From Halorientalis salina (GTDB lineage: Archaea > Halobacteriota > Halobacteria > Halobacteriales > Haloarculaceae), in contig NZ_SOSC01000011.1 in NCBI RefSeq assembly GCF_005049285.1, positions 1-64,000 on the forward strand: a stretch of 64,000 nt of DNA, in the 5' to 3' direction. A program made the translations under genes and the position numbers. The notes beneath the pieces were generated by a model. The model was not told the DNA's origin and did not search any database. It worked only from the letters and a program-made list of their open reading frames with translations. This document shows positions 3,087 through 31,009 of the stretch, piece after piece (position 1 is the stretch's first letter; each line of letters opens with the position of its first letter).

Positions 3087-3986
3087 CTACGCGTCGTCGC
3101 TCGACTCGTAGTGCCGGCGCTCGACGCGTTCGTCGAACAGTCGTCCGAGGAGTTGGGTCATCGGGCCGCTTCCCACGTCGATGCCGTCGACGGAATCAAT
3201 AGGACGGACCTCCCAGGTCGTGTTCGTCAGGAAGGCCTCGTCGGCCTCGCGGAGGTCCTCTACTTCGTAGCGGCCGGCTTCGATCTCGAAGTCCTCGCCC
3301 TGTGCGAGATCGATCACCGTATCGCGAGTCACGCCCGGGAGGATGTCGCAGTCGTCGCTGGGGGTCTTGAGGACGCCGCCGTCGACGAAAAACACGTTGC
3401 TCGTCGCGCCCTCCGCGATCGCGCCGTCGGTCGTCCGGATCAGGGCCTCGTCGGCGGCGAACTCGTCGGTCGCGGCCCGGCGGAGTTCCAGGCGAGCGTG
3501 GATGCCGTTGAGGTAGTTGTGTGTTTTCGCGTCCGCGGGGACGGCCTCGCTCGGCGTCCGCCGGGTCCTGACAGTCTGGACCACCGCGGGGTCGTCCCAG
3601 GGTTTCGTTCCGCTGACACCGCCACGCGGGAGTTCCGTGACGACGACCACGATCGTGGGGTCGACGTCGGGGTCCGGGGTGAGTTTCCCGGGCTGGACGC
3701 CGCGGGTCACGGAGAGCCTGACGTAGGCGTCGTCGAGGTCGTTGGCCGCGAGCGTCTCCCGAACGCGCTCGCGGAGGTCCTCTGGAACCGCCTCGGCGAA
3801 GCCCAGCGTCTCGCAGGTCCGGCGCAACCGGGCTTCGTGGGCCGGCCACCGGAAGACGTCACCGCCGTAGGCCCGGAGCGTCTCGAAGGCCGCGTCGCCG
3901 TACATGAACCCGCGGTCGCGGACGCTCACGGTCGCGTCGTCGGCCGGAACGATCTCGCCGTCTACGTGGTACTGGTAGTCTGACAT
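3087..3986 (-). CDS. pabC: Class IV aminotransferase fold enzyme, probable aminodeoxychorismate lyase
   Basis: This 299-residue PLP enzyme of fold type IV begins with a domain containing RGFMYGDAAFETLRAY, the usual signature near the start of PabC/IlvE/DAAT proteins. A lysine in the segment THNYLNGIH region and the EGATSNVFFVDGG motif match the family. As the last gene of a minus-strand series with a glutamine amidotransferase and a chorismate-binding synthase, it is best read as 4-amino-4-deoxychorismate lyase, releasing p-aminobenzoate and pyruvate. Its start overlaps the upstream amidotransferase by 25 nt, indicating coupled translation. A branched-chain or D-amino-acid aminotransferase cannot be excluded from sequence alone. 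Confidence 0.8.
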   Translation of the reverse strand: MSDYQYHVDGEIVPADDATVSVRDRGFMYGDAAFETLRAYGGDVFRWPAHEARLRRTCETLGFAEAVPEDLRERVRETLAANDLDDAYVRLSVTRGVQPGKLTPDPDVDPTIVVVVTELPRGGVSGTKPWDDPAVVQTVRTRRTPSEAVPADAKTHNYLNGIHARLELRRAATDEFAADEALIRTTDGAIAEGATSNVFFVDGGVLKTPSDDCDILPGVTRDTVIDLAQGEDFEIEAGRYEVEDLREADEAFLTNTTWEVRPIDSVDGIDVGSGPMTQLLGRLFDERVERRHYESSDDA

Positions 3987-4660
3987 TGGTGACAGAAGGC
4001 TGCGATCAGTCGTTTTCCCGCGTCGGTGAGGATGCTCTCGGGGTGGAACTGCACGCCGAAGTGCGGGCGCTCTCGGTGGCGTACGCCCATGACGACGCCC
4101 GGTTCGTCCTCGCCGGGACCGTCTTCGACGGTCCAGGCCGTCTCGACGAGGTCCGCTGGCAGATCCTCGCGCTCGACGGCCAGCGAGTGGTAGCGCCCCA
4201 CCTCGAAGCGCTCGGGCAGGTCGGCGAACAGCCCCGTCCCATCGTGTTCGACGGTCGAGGGTTTCCCGTGGACGACCGCCTCAGCGTGACCGACTGGGGC
4301 ACCGTTGGCCGCACAGAGCGCCTGGTGGCCGAGACACACGCCCAGCGTCGGGTAGTCCAGTTCCCCGAAGACGGGCATCGAGACGCCGGCGTCCGCGGGC
4401 GTCCCGGGACCGGGCGAGACGACGATGCCGTCCGGGTCGAGATCGCGGATTCCCTCAACGGTAATATCGTCGTTTCGCCGGACAAGTACCTCCCCGGGCG
4501 CATCGCGTTCCACGACGCCCAAGTCGGGATCAGTGACGACCTCCCCGACGTTCTGGGACCGCGTCCCAGAGCCTGGTGACGTGACAACGTCACCGACGTA
4601 CTGGACGAGATTGTAGGCGAACGAGTCGTAGTTGTCGATCACGAGGACCCGGAGCGTCAT
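3962..4660 (-). CDS. pabA: Glutamine amidotransferase subunit of aminodeoxychorismate/anthranilate synthase
   Basis: This is a 232-residue class I glutamine amidotransferase. The catalytic Cys is in [10 protein letters not shown], the oxyanion region in VVSPGPGTP, and the His/Glu pair in [11 protein letters not shown]. It supplies ammonia to the chorismate-binding partner encoded immediately upstream, with which it shares a 4-nt ATGA overlap. Residues about 23-50 ([15 protein letters not shown] and following) form an insertion relative to the compact family pattern, where YVG is followed closely by the VRRND segment. The DNA of the insertion is a two-hairpin cassette also found inside polX. 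Confidence 0.88.
4553..4594 (-). repeat. In-frame two-hairpin cassette inside pabA
   Basis: On the plus strand CTGGGAC at 4553-4559 pairs with GTCCCAG at 4563-4569, and GGTGACGT at 4575-4582 pairs with ACGTCACC at 4587-4594, with a 5-nt spacer. Read on the coding strand this is hairpin A, AGGCT, hairpin B, encoding PGSGTRSQ. The polX gene holds hairpin A, AGGCA, hairpin B at 30083-30121, encoding SGSRTQSD in the same codon phase. Paired bases differ between copies but complementarity is kept. Confidence 0.75.
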
Positions 4661-27796: not shown

Positions 27797-27896
27797 TGGC
27801 GAGGGATTGGGGGTCACCCCGGATATGTTTTCCCCACCATCTTTTTCTTCGTCGGGTTCGCTCCCGATGGTCGCGAACCGCTCCTCGAAAAACATG

Positions 27897-27976
27897 GGTG
27901 AAAAAGGCTGAACGCTCGCTTCGCTCGCGTTCAGTGAACCGCGCTCACTTCGTTCGCGCGGATGCTGGTGGTCAGC
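27897..27976 (-). repeat. Haloarchaeal triple-hairpin repeat, copy 3 (lacks stem 3)
   Basis: On the minus strand the element reads AGCATCCGC, then stem 1 (CCGCGC/GCGCGG, plus-strand 27939-27944 and 27956-27961), GGTTCA, stem 2 (CTGAACGC/GCGTTCAG, 27908-27915 and 27927-27934) and CCTTTTT. The third stem and its TTTTTGCGA lead are absent. It lies about 100 nt upstream of the rhomboid start. Confidence 0.7.
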
Positions 27977-29224: not shown

Positions 29225-31009
29225 ATGAGCCGCAACGAGGAGATCGCCACCCGCTTGGAGGCGTTCGCCGACCTCCTGGAAGCCCAGGACGTCGAGTACA
29301 AACCGCGGGCGTACCGTCGGGCCGCCGAGAACATCCGCGGCCATCCCGGCGACGTCGAAGCCCTCGCGACCGACGGCGAAGACGCCGTCCAGACCATCGA
29401 GGGCGTCGGCGACGCCATCGCCTCGAAGGTCGTCGAGTACGTCGAAACCGGTGAGATCGAGGAGCTAGCGGAACTCCGGGCGGAACTCCCCGTCGACATG
29501 CGGGCGCTGACCAGCGTGGAGGGCGTCGGCCCCAAGACCGTCGGGACGCTGTACGATGAACTCGGGGTGACGAACCTCGAAGACCTGGAGACGGCGGCCA
29601 GAGCCGGCGAGATCCAGGAGGTCAAGGGATTCGGTCCCAAGACCGAGCAGAACATCCTCGACAACCTCGAATTCGCCCGGCAGGCCCACGAGCGGGAACT
29701 GCTCGGGGAGGCCAGACCCTACGGCGATCGGGTCCGCGAGTACCTGGCCGACGTGCCGGCCGTCGAGCGCGTCGAACTCGCGGGGTCGATCCGGCGCTGG
29801 CGACCGACCATCGGCGACGTGGACGTGCTCGTCGGCAGCGAAGACGCCGAGGCCGTGGTCGAGGGGTTCACGGAGTGGCCCCCGGCGGACACCGTCATCG
29901 AGGCCGGAACGAGCAAGGCAAGTCTGCGGGCCGACGGCTTCCAGGTCGACCTCCGGGTGGTCGTGCCCGAAGAGTTCGGGGCCGCGCTCCAGTATTTCAC
30001 CGGCAGTAAGGACCACAACGTCTCCCTGCGGAACCGCGCAATCGAGCGCGATCTGAAGATGAACGAGTACGGGATGTTCAGAGAGGCGCGAAGCGCCTCA
30101 GGCAGTCGGACGCAGTCCGACGACGACGTCAGCGGTGTCGAAGACGACTCCGGCCAGCGTGCAGGCGAGCGTGTTGCGGGCGAAACCGAGGCGGGAATGT
30201 ACGAGACGCTCGATCTGCCCTGGATGCCGCCGGAGTTGCGCGAGAACCGCGGGGAGATCGACGCCGCCGCCGAGGGGGCCCTCCCAGACCTCGTCGAGGA
30301 GGACGAGGTCCGCGGCGACCTCCACACGCACACCGAGTGGTCCGACGGCAAAAACACCGTCCGGGAGATGGCCGAGGGCGCGGCCGAGTTCGGCCACGAC
30401 TACCTCGCCGTCACGGACCACGCGACCGGTCCCGGAATGGTGGGTGGCGTCGGCCTCTCCGACGCGGAGTTGGCCGATCAGATCGAGGAAATCCGGGCCG
30501 TCGACGCCGAGGTCGAGGTGGACCTGTTCGCCGGCGTCGAAGCCAACATCGGCGCTGACGGGTCGGTGTCGGTCGCCGACGACGTGCTCGCTGAACTCGA
30601 CGTGGTCGTCGCCTCCCCGCACGCCGGCCTCGACGGCGACGGCACCGACCGCCTCGTAGCGGCCATCGAACACCCCGAGGTCGATATCGTGGGCCACCCG
30701 ACGGGTCGGCTGTTGAACCAGCGCAGCGGGCTGGACATCGATATCGAGCGGGTCGCCACGGCCGCCGCCGAGCACGGCGTCGCACTGGAGGTAAACAGCG
30801 ACCCGCGTCGACTGGATCTGGACGGCGCGGCGGTGAAACCGGCCATCGAGGCGGGCGCGTCCATCGCTATCGACACAGACGCCCATCAGCCGGGAACGCT
30901 GTCGTACATGCGCTACGGTGTCCACACCGCCCGGCGGGGCTGGGCCGAAGCCGACGACGTGATAAACACGCGCGACGCCGACGGCCTGCGGGAGTTCCTG
31001 GGGTTGTAA
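29225..31009 (+). CDS. polX: DNA polymerase X family protein with PHP 3'-5' exonuclease domain
   Basis: This 594-residue protein has three parts: an HhH region (IEGVGDAIASKVVEYV, VEGVGPKTVGTLYDELG, VKGFGPKTEQNIL), a Pol X palm with metal aspartates in IGDVDVLVGS and FQVDLRVVV, and a C-terminal PHP domain (DLHTHTEWSDGKNTV, AVTDHATGP, VASPHAGL, DIVGHPTGR, AIDTDAHQP). It fills gaps and excises 3' ends in base-excision repair. Residues about 286-313 are an insertion encoded by a hairpin cassette between MFRE and GERVAGETE. Its stop overlaps the next start by 1 nt. Confidence 0.92.
   Translation: MSRNEEIATRLEAFADLLEAQDVEYKPRAYRRAAENIRGHPGDVEALATDGEDAVQTIEGVGDAIASKVVEYVETGEIEELAELRAELPVDMRALTSVEGVGPKTVGTLYDELGVTNLEDLETAARAGEIQEVKGFGPKTEQNILDNLEFARQAHERELLGEARPYGDRVREYLADVPAVERVELAGSIRRWRPTIGDVDVLVGSEDAEAVVEGFTEWPPADTVIEAGTSKASLRADGFQVDLRVVVPEEFGAALQYFTGSKDHNVSLRNRAIERDLKMNEYGMFREARSASGSRTQSDDDVSGVEDDSGQRAGERVAGETEAGMYETLDLPWMPPELRENRGEIDAAAEGALPDLVEEDEVRGDLHTHTEWSDGKNTVREMAEGAAEFGHDYLAVTDHATGPGMVGGVGLSDAELADQIEEIRAVDAEVEVDLFAGVEANIGADGSVSVADDVLAELDVVVASPHAGLDGDGTDRLVAAIEHPEVDIVGHPTGRLLNQRSGLDIDIERVATAAAEHGVALEVNSDPRRLDLDGAAVKPAIEAGASIAIDTDAHQPGTLSYMRYGVHTARRGWAEADDVINTRDADGLREFLGL
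30083..30121 (+). repeat. In-frame two-hairpin cassette inside polX
   Basis: GAGGCGC (30083-30089) pairs with GCGCCTC (30093-30099); after the spacer AGGCA, GTCGGAC (30105-30111) pairs with GTCCGAC (30115-30121), each with a 3-nt loop. It encodes ARSASGSRTQSD in frame. The pabA copy has the same hairpin-AGGCW-hairpin order and phase. Confidence 0.75.

Follow-up and report, generated by a model that had tools for sequence, protein, structure and literature searches.

Double-hairpin elements inserted in frame in polX and pabA of Halorientalis salina, probable copies of a haloarchaea-wide family

The polX and pabA loci

The DNA stretch analyzed here (the window) comprises the first 64,000 nucleotides of contig NZ_SOSC01000011.1 of Halorientalis salina. 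It contains polX (29225–31009, plus strand), a gene for an X-family DNA polymerase with a PHP domain, recognized by the Pfam thumb and PHP families. Within this open reading frame, and on the same strand, lies the double hairpin GAGGCGC-gaa-GCGCCTC / AGGCA / GTCGGAC-gca-GTCCGAC (30083–30121), which is read in frame as EARSASGSRTQSD, just as the initial annotation had described it. Hairpin A (30083–30099; 7 bp, loop GAA) includes the motif GCGAAGC. It is followed by the 5-nt linker AGGCA (30100–30104; family consensus N[AG]GCA) and by hairpin B (30105–30121), which has 7 bp and the loop GCA and is better conserved in the family (NYCGGAC-GNA-GTCCGRN) than hairpin A. The complete insertion, AGA-[hairpin A]-AGGCA-[hairpin B]-GAC, occupies 30080–30124, comprises 45 nt or 15 codons with the product REARSASGSRTQSDD, and is placed between TTC and GAC of the empty site. 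Compared with empty congeners (TTC-GACGT), its edges are ambiguous by 1 nt, and there is no target duplication.

In the AlphaFold model the insert is found in a loop of the thumb, between the strands 283–286 and 315–318, and the loop formed by the inserted residues is predicted to be disordered (pLDDT about 31), in contrast to the confident remainder of the model. The Thermus PolX structure 3au2 has hardly any loop at this position. The loop delimited by NEYG..LPW is 55 residues long in the window, versus 40 in most haloarchaea that were readable among 65 loci with PolX relatives, which together with the predicted disorder agrees with the original suggestion that the cassette lengthens a loop of an otherwise compact family. 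Outside the inserts both enzymes are conserved.

The second host gene is pabA/trpG (3962–4660, minus strand), which encodes a class I glutamine amidotransferase (Pfam GATase, E=1.8e-44). Its double hairpin (minus strand, 4594–4552) reads GGTGACGT-tgtc-ACGTCACC / AGGC / TCTGGGAC-gcg-GTCCCAGA. Hairpin A (4575–4594; 8 bp, loop TGTC) has a host-like left arm (GGTGACGT beside the native GGCGAGGT), and hairpin B (4552–4570) has 8 bp and the loop GCG. The insertion itself, GACGTTGTCACGTCACCAGGCTCTGGGACGCGGTCCCAGAACGTCGGG (4544–4591, minus strand), is 48 nt long and flanked by a duplicated VG(D/E)VVT segment, its boundaries being blurred by the repeat ACGTCGG. The view that polX and pabA carry the same cassette is thus correct as far as both have related double hairpins, but their lengths differ: stem A of pabA has 8 bp with a 4-base loop, and the insert is 48 rather than 45 nt. 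The two copies do read alike in their open reading frames, i.e., in the same codon phase, and the base changes between their B stems are, as had been noticed, compensated, with pairing kept in both. As single-stranded DNA, the polX and pabA cassettes fold with z = −4.4 and −3.8, respectively, relative to shuffled sequences, none of which was equally stable. A scan for the element gave 0 matches in 60 shuffled windows.

Empty and filled sites

Relative to its orthologues, the polX gene of the window has gained exactly 45 nt. Within the genus Halorientalis (seven other species), the polX site is empty in all six readable congeners, and the match in the seventh (G080) has the empty length. The proposed alignment of orthologues thus shows that, among the congeners read, the polX insert is confined to the window species, while the pabA insert is also present in the sister species G075. 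Four other congeners among those tested for pabA are either empty or lack the cassette. Stem A of the G075 pabA copy is unchanged, and its stem B reads CCCCGAC/GTCGGGG versus CTGGGAC/GTCCCAG in the window; three adjacent pairs differ and all are still paired.

A filled polX site was found in a second genus (g3) as well, where the genome G014 has its own, independent copy at the identical base, AGA-GAGGTGC-gaa-GCACCTC-AAGCA-GTCGGAC-gca-GTCCGAC-GAC. It alone among the 22 PolX matches of that genus is 45 nt longer, the others being without the extra 45 nt. Halostagnicola A-GB9-2 carries a different 45-nt insertion 9 nt (three codons) downstream, and the site is empty in its relative A56. It had been proposed that the idea of an inserted element would be refuted if orthologues carried an unrelated insert of equal length. 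Such an insert does exist, in one species: the same PolX loop of Halorussus aquaticus holds 15 additional residues encoded by TCCGAGC-tcg-GCTCGGA / TCGTCGGA-ctcg-TCCGACGA, next to a duplicated DVSE flank. It extends rather than refutes the idea, because it is itself a double hairpin of different sequence.

Further gains were detected in the window's own genome by comparison with congeners: 45 nt in an RNase-J-like gene, 39 nt in MutS, 48 nt in the uncharacterized gene L060 and 45 nt in a cupin gene, in addition to the 48 nt of pabA; the sizes for MutS and cupin are less certain, as these loops vary in length. The RNase-J-like and pabA insertions have short repeats at the site. The PolX and RNase-J-like loops were also seen to be recurrent insertion hot spots: different families of the order have insertions there, at one and the same codon or close to it (L026, L043, L044, L048, L148, L158, L160). 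Filled alleles could instead travel between species by recombination with a related gene.

Distribution and host genes

A covariance model built from ten copies was used for the genome searches. It detected the double hairpin in 134 of the 146 genomes of the taxonomic family, with 22 matches (E<=0.01) in the window's own genome. In a sample of the phylum, 64 of 392 genomes were positive, and all 64 are listed under the same order, the haloarchaea; the approximately 300 genomes sampled from other orders provide the model with a natural negative control. An exact-pattern search of viral contigs gave no match, so no viral carrier was found. Three candidates from the first family-wide pattern search (L016–L018) were false positives with an unpaired stem A and were excluded.

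The search for the pattern in other coding sequences, recommended at the outset, thus revealed many further genes and genomes with the double hairpin. The hosts are dozens of unrelated protein genes, among them those for histidine kinases, MutS, valyl-tRNA synthetase, RNase-J-like and CBS proteins, named from recognizable motifs in their translations and not by family searches. Up to three or four tandem 45-nt units are present in the N-box of histidine kinases (SVEHGSTSSRTQSDD), and two units in valyl-tRNA synthetase. The tandem units of the N-box (L012, L034, L040, L057, L226) read VEHGSTxxRxxxxDS, and a second, related module found there, STSPDSQTRQDAVEHG, has no perfect hairpin B. Intergenic copies form chains in which 5-nt and 6-nt linkers alternate, giving a period of 45 nt. 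The data establish insertion, phase, recurrence, pairing and empty sites, and the family occupies coding as well as intergenic DNA.

Anatomy and reading phase

The anatomy of the element was derived from 153 copies, 130 of them distinct. The consensus is GACAG[C/A/T] - hairpin A - N[AG]GCA - hairpin B - GAC[G/A], and the 45-nt unit consists of AGN, hairpin A, NRGCA, hairpin B and GAC. Hairpin A has 7 bp and a 3-nt loop, with 25 different left arms among the 130 distinct copies. Hairpin B begins with NYCGGAC, continues with a loop that is mostly GCA, GGA, GAA or GTA, and ends with GTCCGRN. In the non-kinase coding copies it is followed by GACG (69%) or GACA (30%), the scan itself having required GA[CT].

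The coding context is confident for 112 of the 153 copies, judged by open reading frame length and GC3 bias; the element is not mainly extragenic. About 106 of these 112 are in the sense orientation and in one phase. Of the six exceptions, L057, L155 and L028 are apparently sense copies miscalled as antisense, and L175, L181 and L195 seem either to use the next frame genuinely or to lie in a non-coding start region. Stop codons are absent from the three sense frames in 99, 99 and 71 of 100 distinct coding copies, and from the three antisense frames in 84, 99 and 94. As most frames are stop-free, the fixed phase is not forced by stop codons, and selection for a tolerable peptide is its simplest cause. 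The core is 39 nt long in all 112 coding copies versus 36 of the 41 non-coding ones, a length that the search model itself favors, and the gains at empty sites measure 39, 45 or 48 nt.

Nature and origin of the element

The polX and pabA cassettes probably belong, as two of its copies, to a family of short double-hairpin DNA elements that is spread across the haloarchaea, apparently mobile and inserted in frame. Among the other explanations, it may be considered that the cassette is a remnant of an IS200/IS605 element, a minimal PATE moved in trans by a HUH transposase. Such an origin would agree with the two near-terminal hairpins, the strand polarity and fixed flanks (GACAGN...GAC), the polX site without target duplication, and the PATEs known in Haloquadratum, which are related to IS605 ends (PMC3119063). 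However, the three Y1 transposases of this genome belong to ordinary tnpA-tnpB pairs, and the element is absent from these loci and their neighborhoods. In addition, the stem sequences vary freely, whereas PATE palindromes match the transposon ends, and with 39–45 nt the element is far shorter. We regard this origin as rather unlikely.

Another possibility is that each copy arises in place by de novo fold-back, i.e., by a template switch during replication for which host sequence provides the left arm, and is then expanded in tandem. Indeed, template switching can create and repair stems (PMC8794818), and in the pabA, histidine-kinase and Halorussus polX copies a duplicated host segment, made of host codons, forms the left arm of stem A. 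For this reason these three are not simple cut-and-insert events, and they fit fold-back copying of the target. In the polX, MutS and RNase-J-like genes, on the other hand, the arms and hairpin B are missing from the empty site, and for these copies an element must have been imported ready-made; different genes, moreover, have the linker and hairpin B in common. That all copies arose by fold-back alone has, in our estimate, a low though appreciable probability.

The pairing of the arms bears on whether the element acts as RNA. Over the 130 distinct copies, 1806 of 1824 pairs are Watson-Crick, 12 are mismatched and 6 (about 0.3%) are G-T, counts that lean toward pairing as the covariance model that found most copies requires it. 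Such strong covariation, and the sense orientation of the coding copies, could mean that the stem-loops act in the mRNA (in stability, translation or protein binding) and that selection for RNA folding keeps the pairs. RNA stems evolve through G-U intermediates, though, and the scarcity of wobble pairs here is unlike RNA stems. Nor does RNA require a sense bias that is bound to the reading phase; the hosts are functionally unrelated and have orthologues without the cassette, and Rfam gave no family match at the cassette. The hairpin-B loops are GNA in 99 of the 130 distinct copies (76%) and the complement TNC in 8, equally so in coding and non-coding copies, as compared with 14 of 117 for GNA and TNC combined in background 7-bp triloop hairpins. 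In DNA, C-GNA-G hairpins have extraordinary stability, most of all d(GCGAAGC) (PMC4686876), and polX hairpin A holds exactly GCGAAGC. A conserved RNA element is accordingly quite improbable.

Convergence at the protein level, in which halophilic surface loops would favor Gly-Ser-Asp and the hairpins would be a by-product of GC-rich codons, has in its favor the linker-like peptide in a predicted disordered loop and the nearly fixed phase. It is contradicted by the histidine-kinase copies, which were collected by a search for V-E-H-G-S-T codons with free third positions and without imposed pairing. In 133 matches, which are not independent since tandem copies have common ancestry, each of the two free pairs is Watson-Crick 119 times, whereas 76 and 65 would be expected; 0 of 20000 shuffles reached this number for either pair, G-T occurs 4 times in total, and the two pairs vary independently of each other. 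Selection on the protein cannot link these positions, because they are synonymous and lie in different codons, four codons apart. The same structure and linkers in intergenic copies, and the fixed 45-nt architecture with its common linker, also argue against convergence, which we consider very improbable. Short hairpin elements within genes also occur as the byp elements in mitochondria of the yeast Magnusiomyces, but that ribosomes skip the cassette as in such translational bypass is barely conceivable, for bypass needs neither a 39-nt core in every coding copy and gains of 39, 45 or 48 nt nor one preferred phase.

Proposed mechanism

For the mobile double-hairpin family, a sequence of steps may be outlined in order of decreasing confidence. 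With most confidence we infer that a copy persists in a gene only if its length is a multiple of three and it meets a tolerant loop in one phase. The surviving phase would give the small, polar, flexible peptide SxxxxxSGSRTQS[GD]D, and frame and strand would be set by selection after insertion. Second, the acting form would be a single-stranded DNA hairpin on the coding strand; the polarity suggests that the coding strand is the one that folds. Third, template switching between the arms during replication may restore complementarity, and could also make new hairpins from host sequence. It is proposed because the multi-base compensatory changes lack wobble intermediates, and its chances are about even at best. 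The arms might also stay perfect because a single-stranded hairpin is needed. Inversion of the loops was considered as proof of template switching and rejected: the loops are asymmetric under inversion, which leaves full-length switches unsupported and implies that switching rarely spans a whole hairpin or is filtered. The last and least certain step, again with no better than balanced chances, is the spread, for which hairpin-bearing single strands might be captured at replication forks or a HUH/Y1-type transposase might act in trans, the two routes being about equal.

In a more far-reaching picture, the DNA element would need no transposase, and both its spread and its perfect arms would depend on single-strand hairpins and replication template switching alone. 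It would copy an existing double hairpin or make a new one by folding back on the codons of its host, grow into trains of 45-nt units and keep adding loops to essential proteins across the order. We offer this picture tentatively, as possible rather than probable.

Relation to known elements

Protein-coding palindromic repeats are known as Rickettsia palindromic elements (RPE) and from Wolbachia and Methanocaldococcus jannaschii (Ogata et al., 2000, 2005; Suyama et al., 2005; as cited in PMC2229807 and PMC2996958). They are short palindromic repeats found in frame in flexible regions of many unrelated, essential genes and also between genes, and no transposase is known for them. The cassette resembles them in all these respects: empty sites document in-frame insertion in several unrelated genes (polX, pabA, RNase-J-like, MutS, L060 and cupin), and the phase is the same in different hosts (106 of 112 coding copies). 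Rickettsia RPEs, however, are long single stem-loops of 105–146 bp restricted to Rickettsia (PMC2229807), whereas the cassette has 45 nt, two 7-bp hairpins and an order-wide distribution in haloarchaea, and its arms vary freely yet pair perfectly. It is not an RPE proper.

CGTC-tagged REPs, which include RPE-4 and RPE-6, are in part intragenic and have no transposase (Di Nocera et al., 2013; PMC3733652). The cassette shares with them dimers, intragenic copies and the lack of a transposase (PMC3733652), and on the strand opposite to coding (C/T)GTC directly precedes hairpin B, corresponding to a CGTC/TGTC tag. In contrast, these REPs have stems of 8–9 bp with 4–5-nt loops, A-T first pairs, a CCA tail and a mostly head-to-head arrangement (PMC3733652), while the cassette has G-C rich stems of 7 bp, 3-nt loops, no CCA tail and head-to-tail chains. 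REPs are mainly extragenic, unlike the cassette with its 112 coding copies among 153, and the survey lists no archaea among the CGTC hosts (PMC3733652). The PATEs and small mobile repeats of Haloquadratum are, similarly to the cassette, transposase-free haloarchaeal repeats with palindromes, and they lack a target duplication, as does the polX copy (PMC3119063). The small mobile repeats differ, however, in having terminal inverted repeats, one family being 80 bp long, and those of type A often reside within IS605-type transposons or PATEs and not in coding loops (PMC3119063).

The kind of element is thus known, namely protein-coding palindromic repeats, but the cassette is not placed in RPE, REP or PATE, because its size, double-hairpin unit, loops, arm variability and host range differ. 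No report of this element in haloarchaea was found in the open-access literature that was searched. Double-hairpin elements do occur in fungal mitochondria, where they are mobile and consist of two adjacent GC-rich hairpins with compensated arms, similarly to the apparently mobile cassette. Unlike the cassette, they are organellar and mostly intergenic, and we know of no fixed coding phase for them.

Protein-coding palindromes have so far been described as curiosities of Rickettsia, Wolbachia and one methanogen. Here they extend through a whole order of archaea that are genetically tractable; there are hundreds of copies, sister species offer clean empty sites, and synonymous covariation provides a built-in readout. 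This makes testable both movement without a known transposase and the question of selection versus template switching as the source of compensatory stem changes. The repeated VEHGST... modules in the haloarchaeal histidine-kinase N-box are likewise accounted for, as a DNA element present in tandem, and caution is due with alignments, where loops of this type may be mobile DNA and not functional motifs.

Other hairpin-bearing repeats

Several further repeats with hairpins were observed. In one IS605-type tnpA-tnpB pair (L231, G000:C4), the part of tnpB that encodes the C-terminus contains two perfect hairpins next to each other, AACGAGAGCGAAGCTCTCGTT and TCAGAATCG...CGATTCTGA; this double-hairpin right end resembles the cassette in layout. 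Another haloarchaeal genus has, in several of its genomes, intergenic repeats a few hundred bases long (L211–L215, L157, L162, L223–L229) that enclose the double hairpin and have the conserved blocks gactcaaaggggcagtc and gcctccccagcctcgtc in common. Three copies of the window's own genome (L058, L059 and L064, on G000 C5, C19 and C6) have no clear reading frame and an 8-bp hairpin A that is preceded by a common leader, ctcc..cgccgtaaacgga or a similar sequence; they may represent a longer repeat. Another hairpin family of this genome is represented in the window by a long-distance inverted repeat (258–312 and 27888–27942) with intergenic hairpins (GAACGC...GCGTTC).
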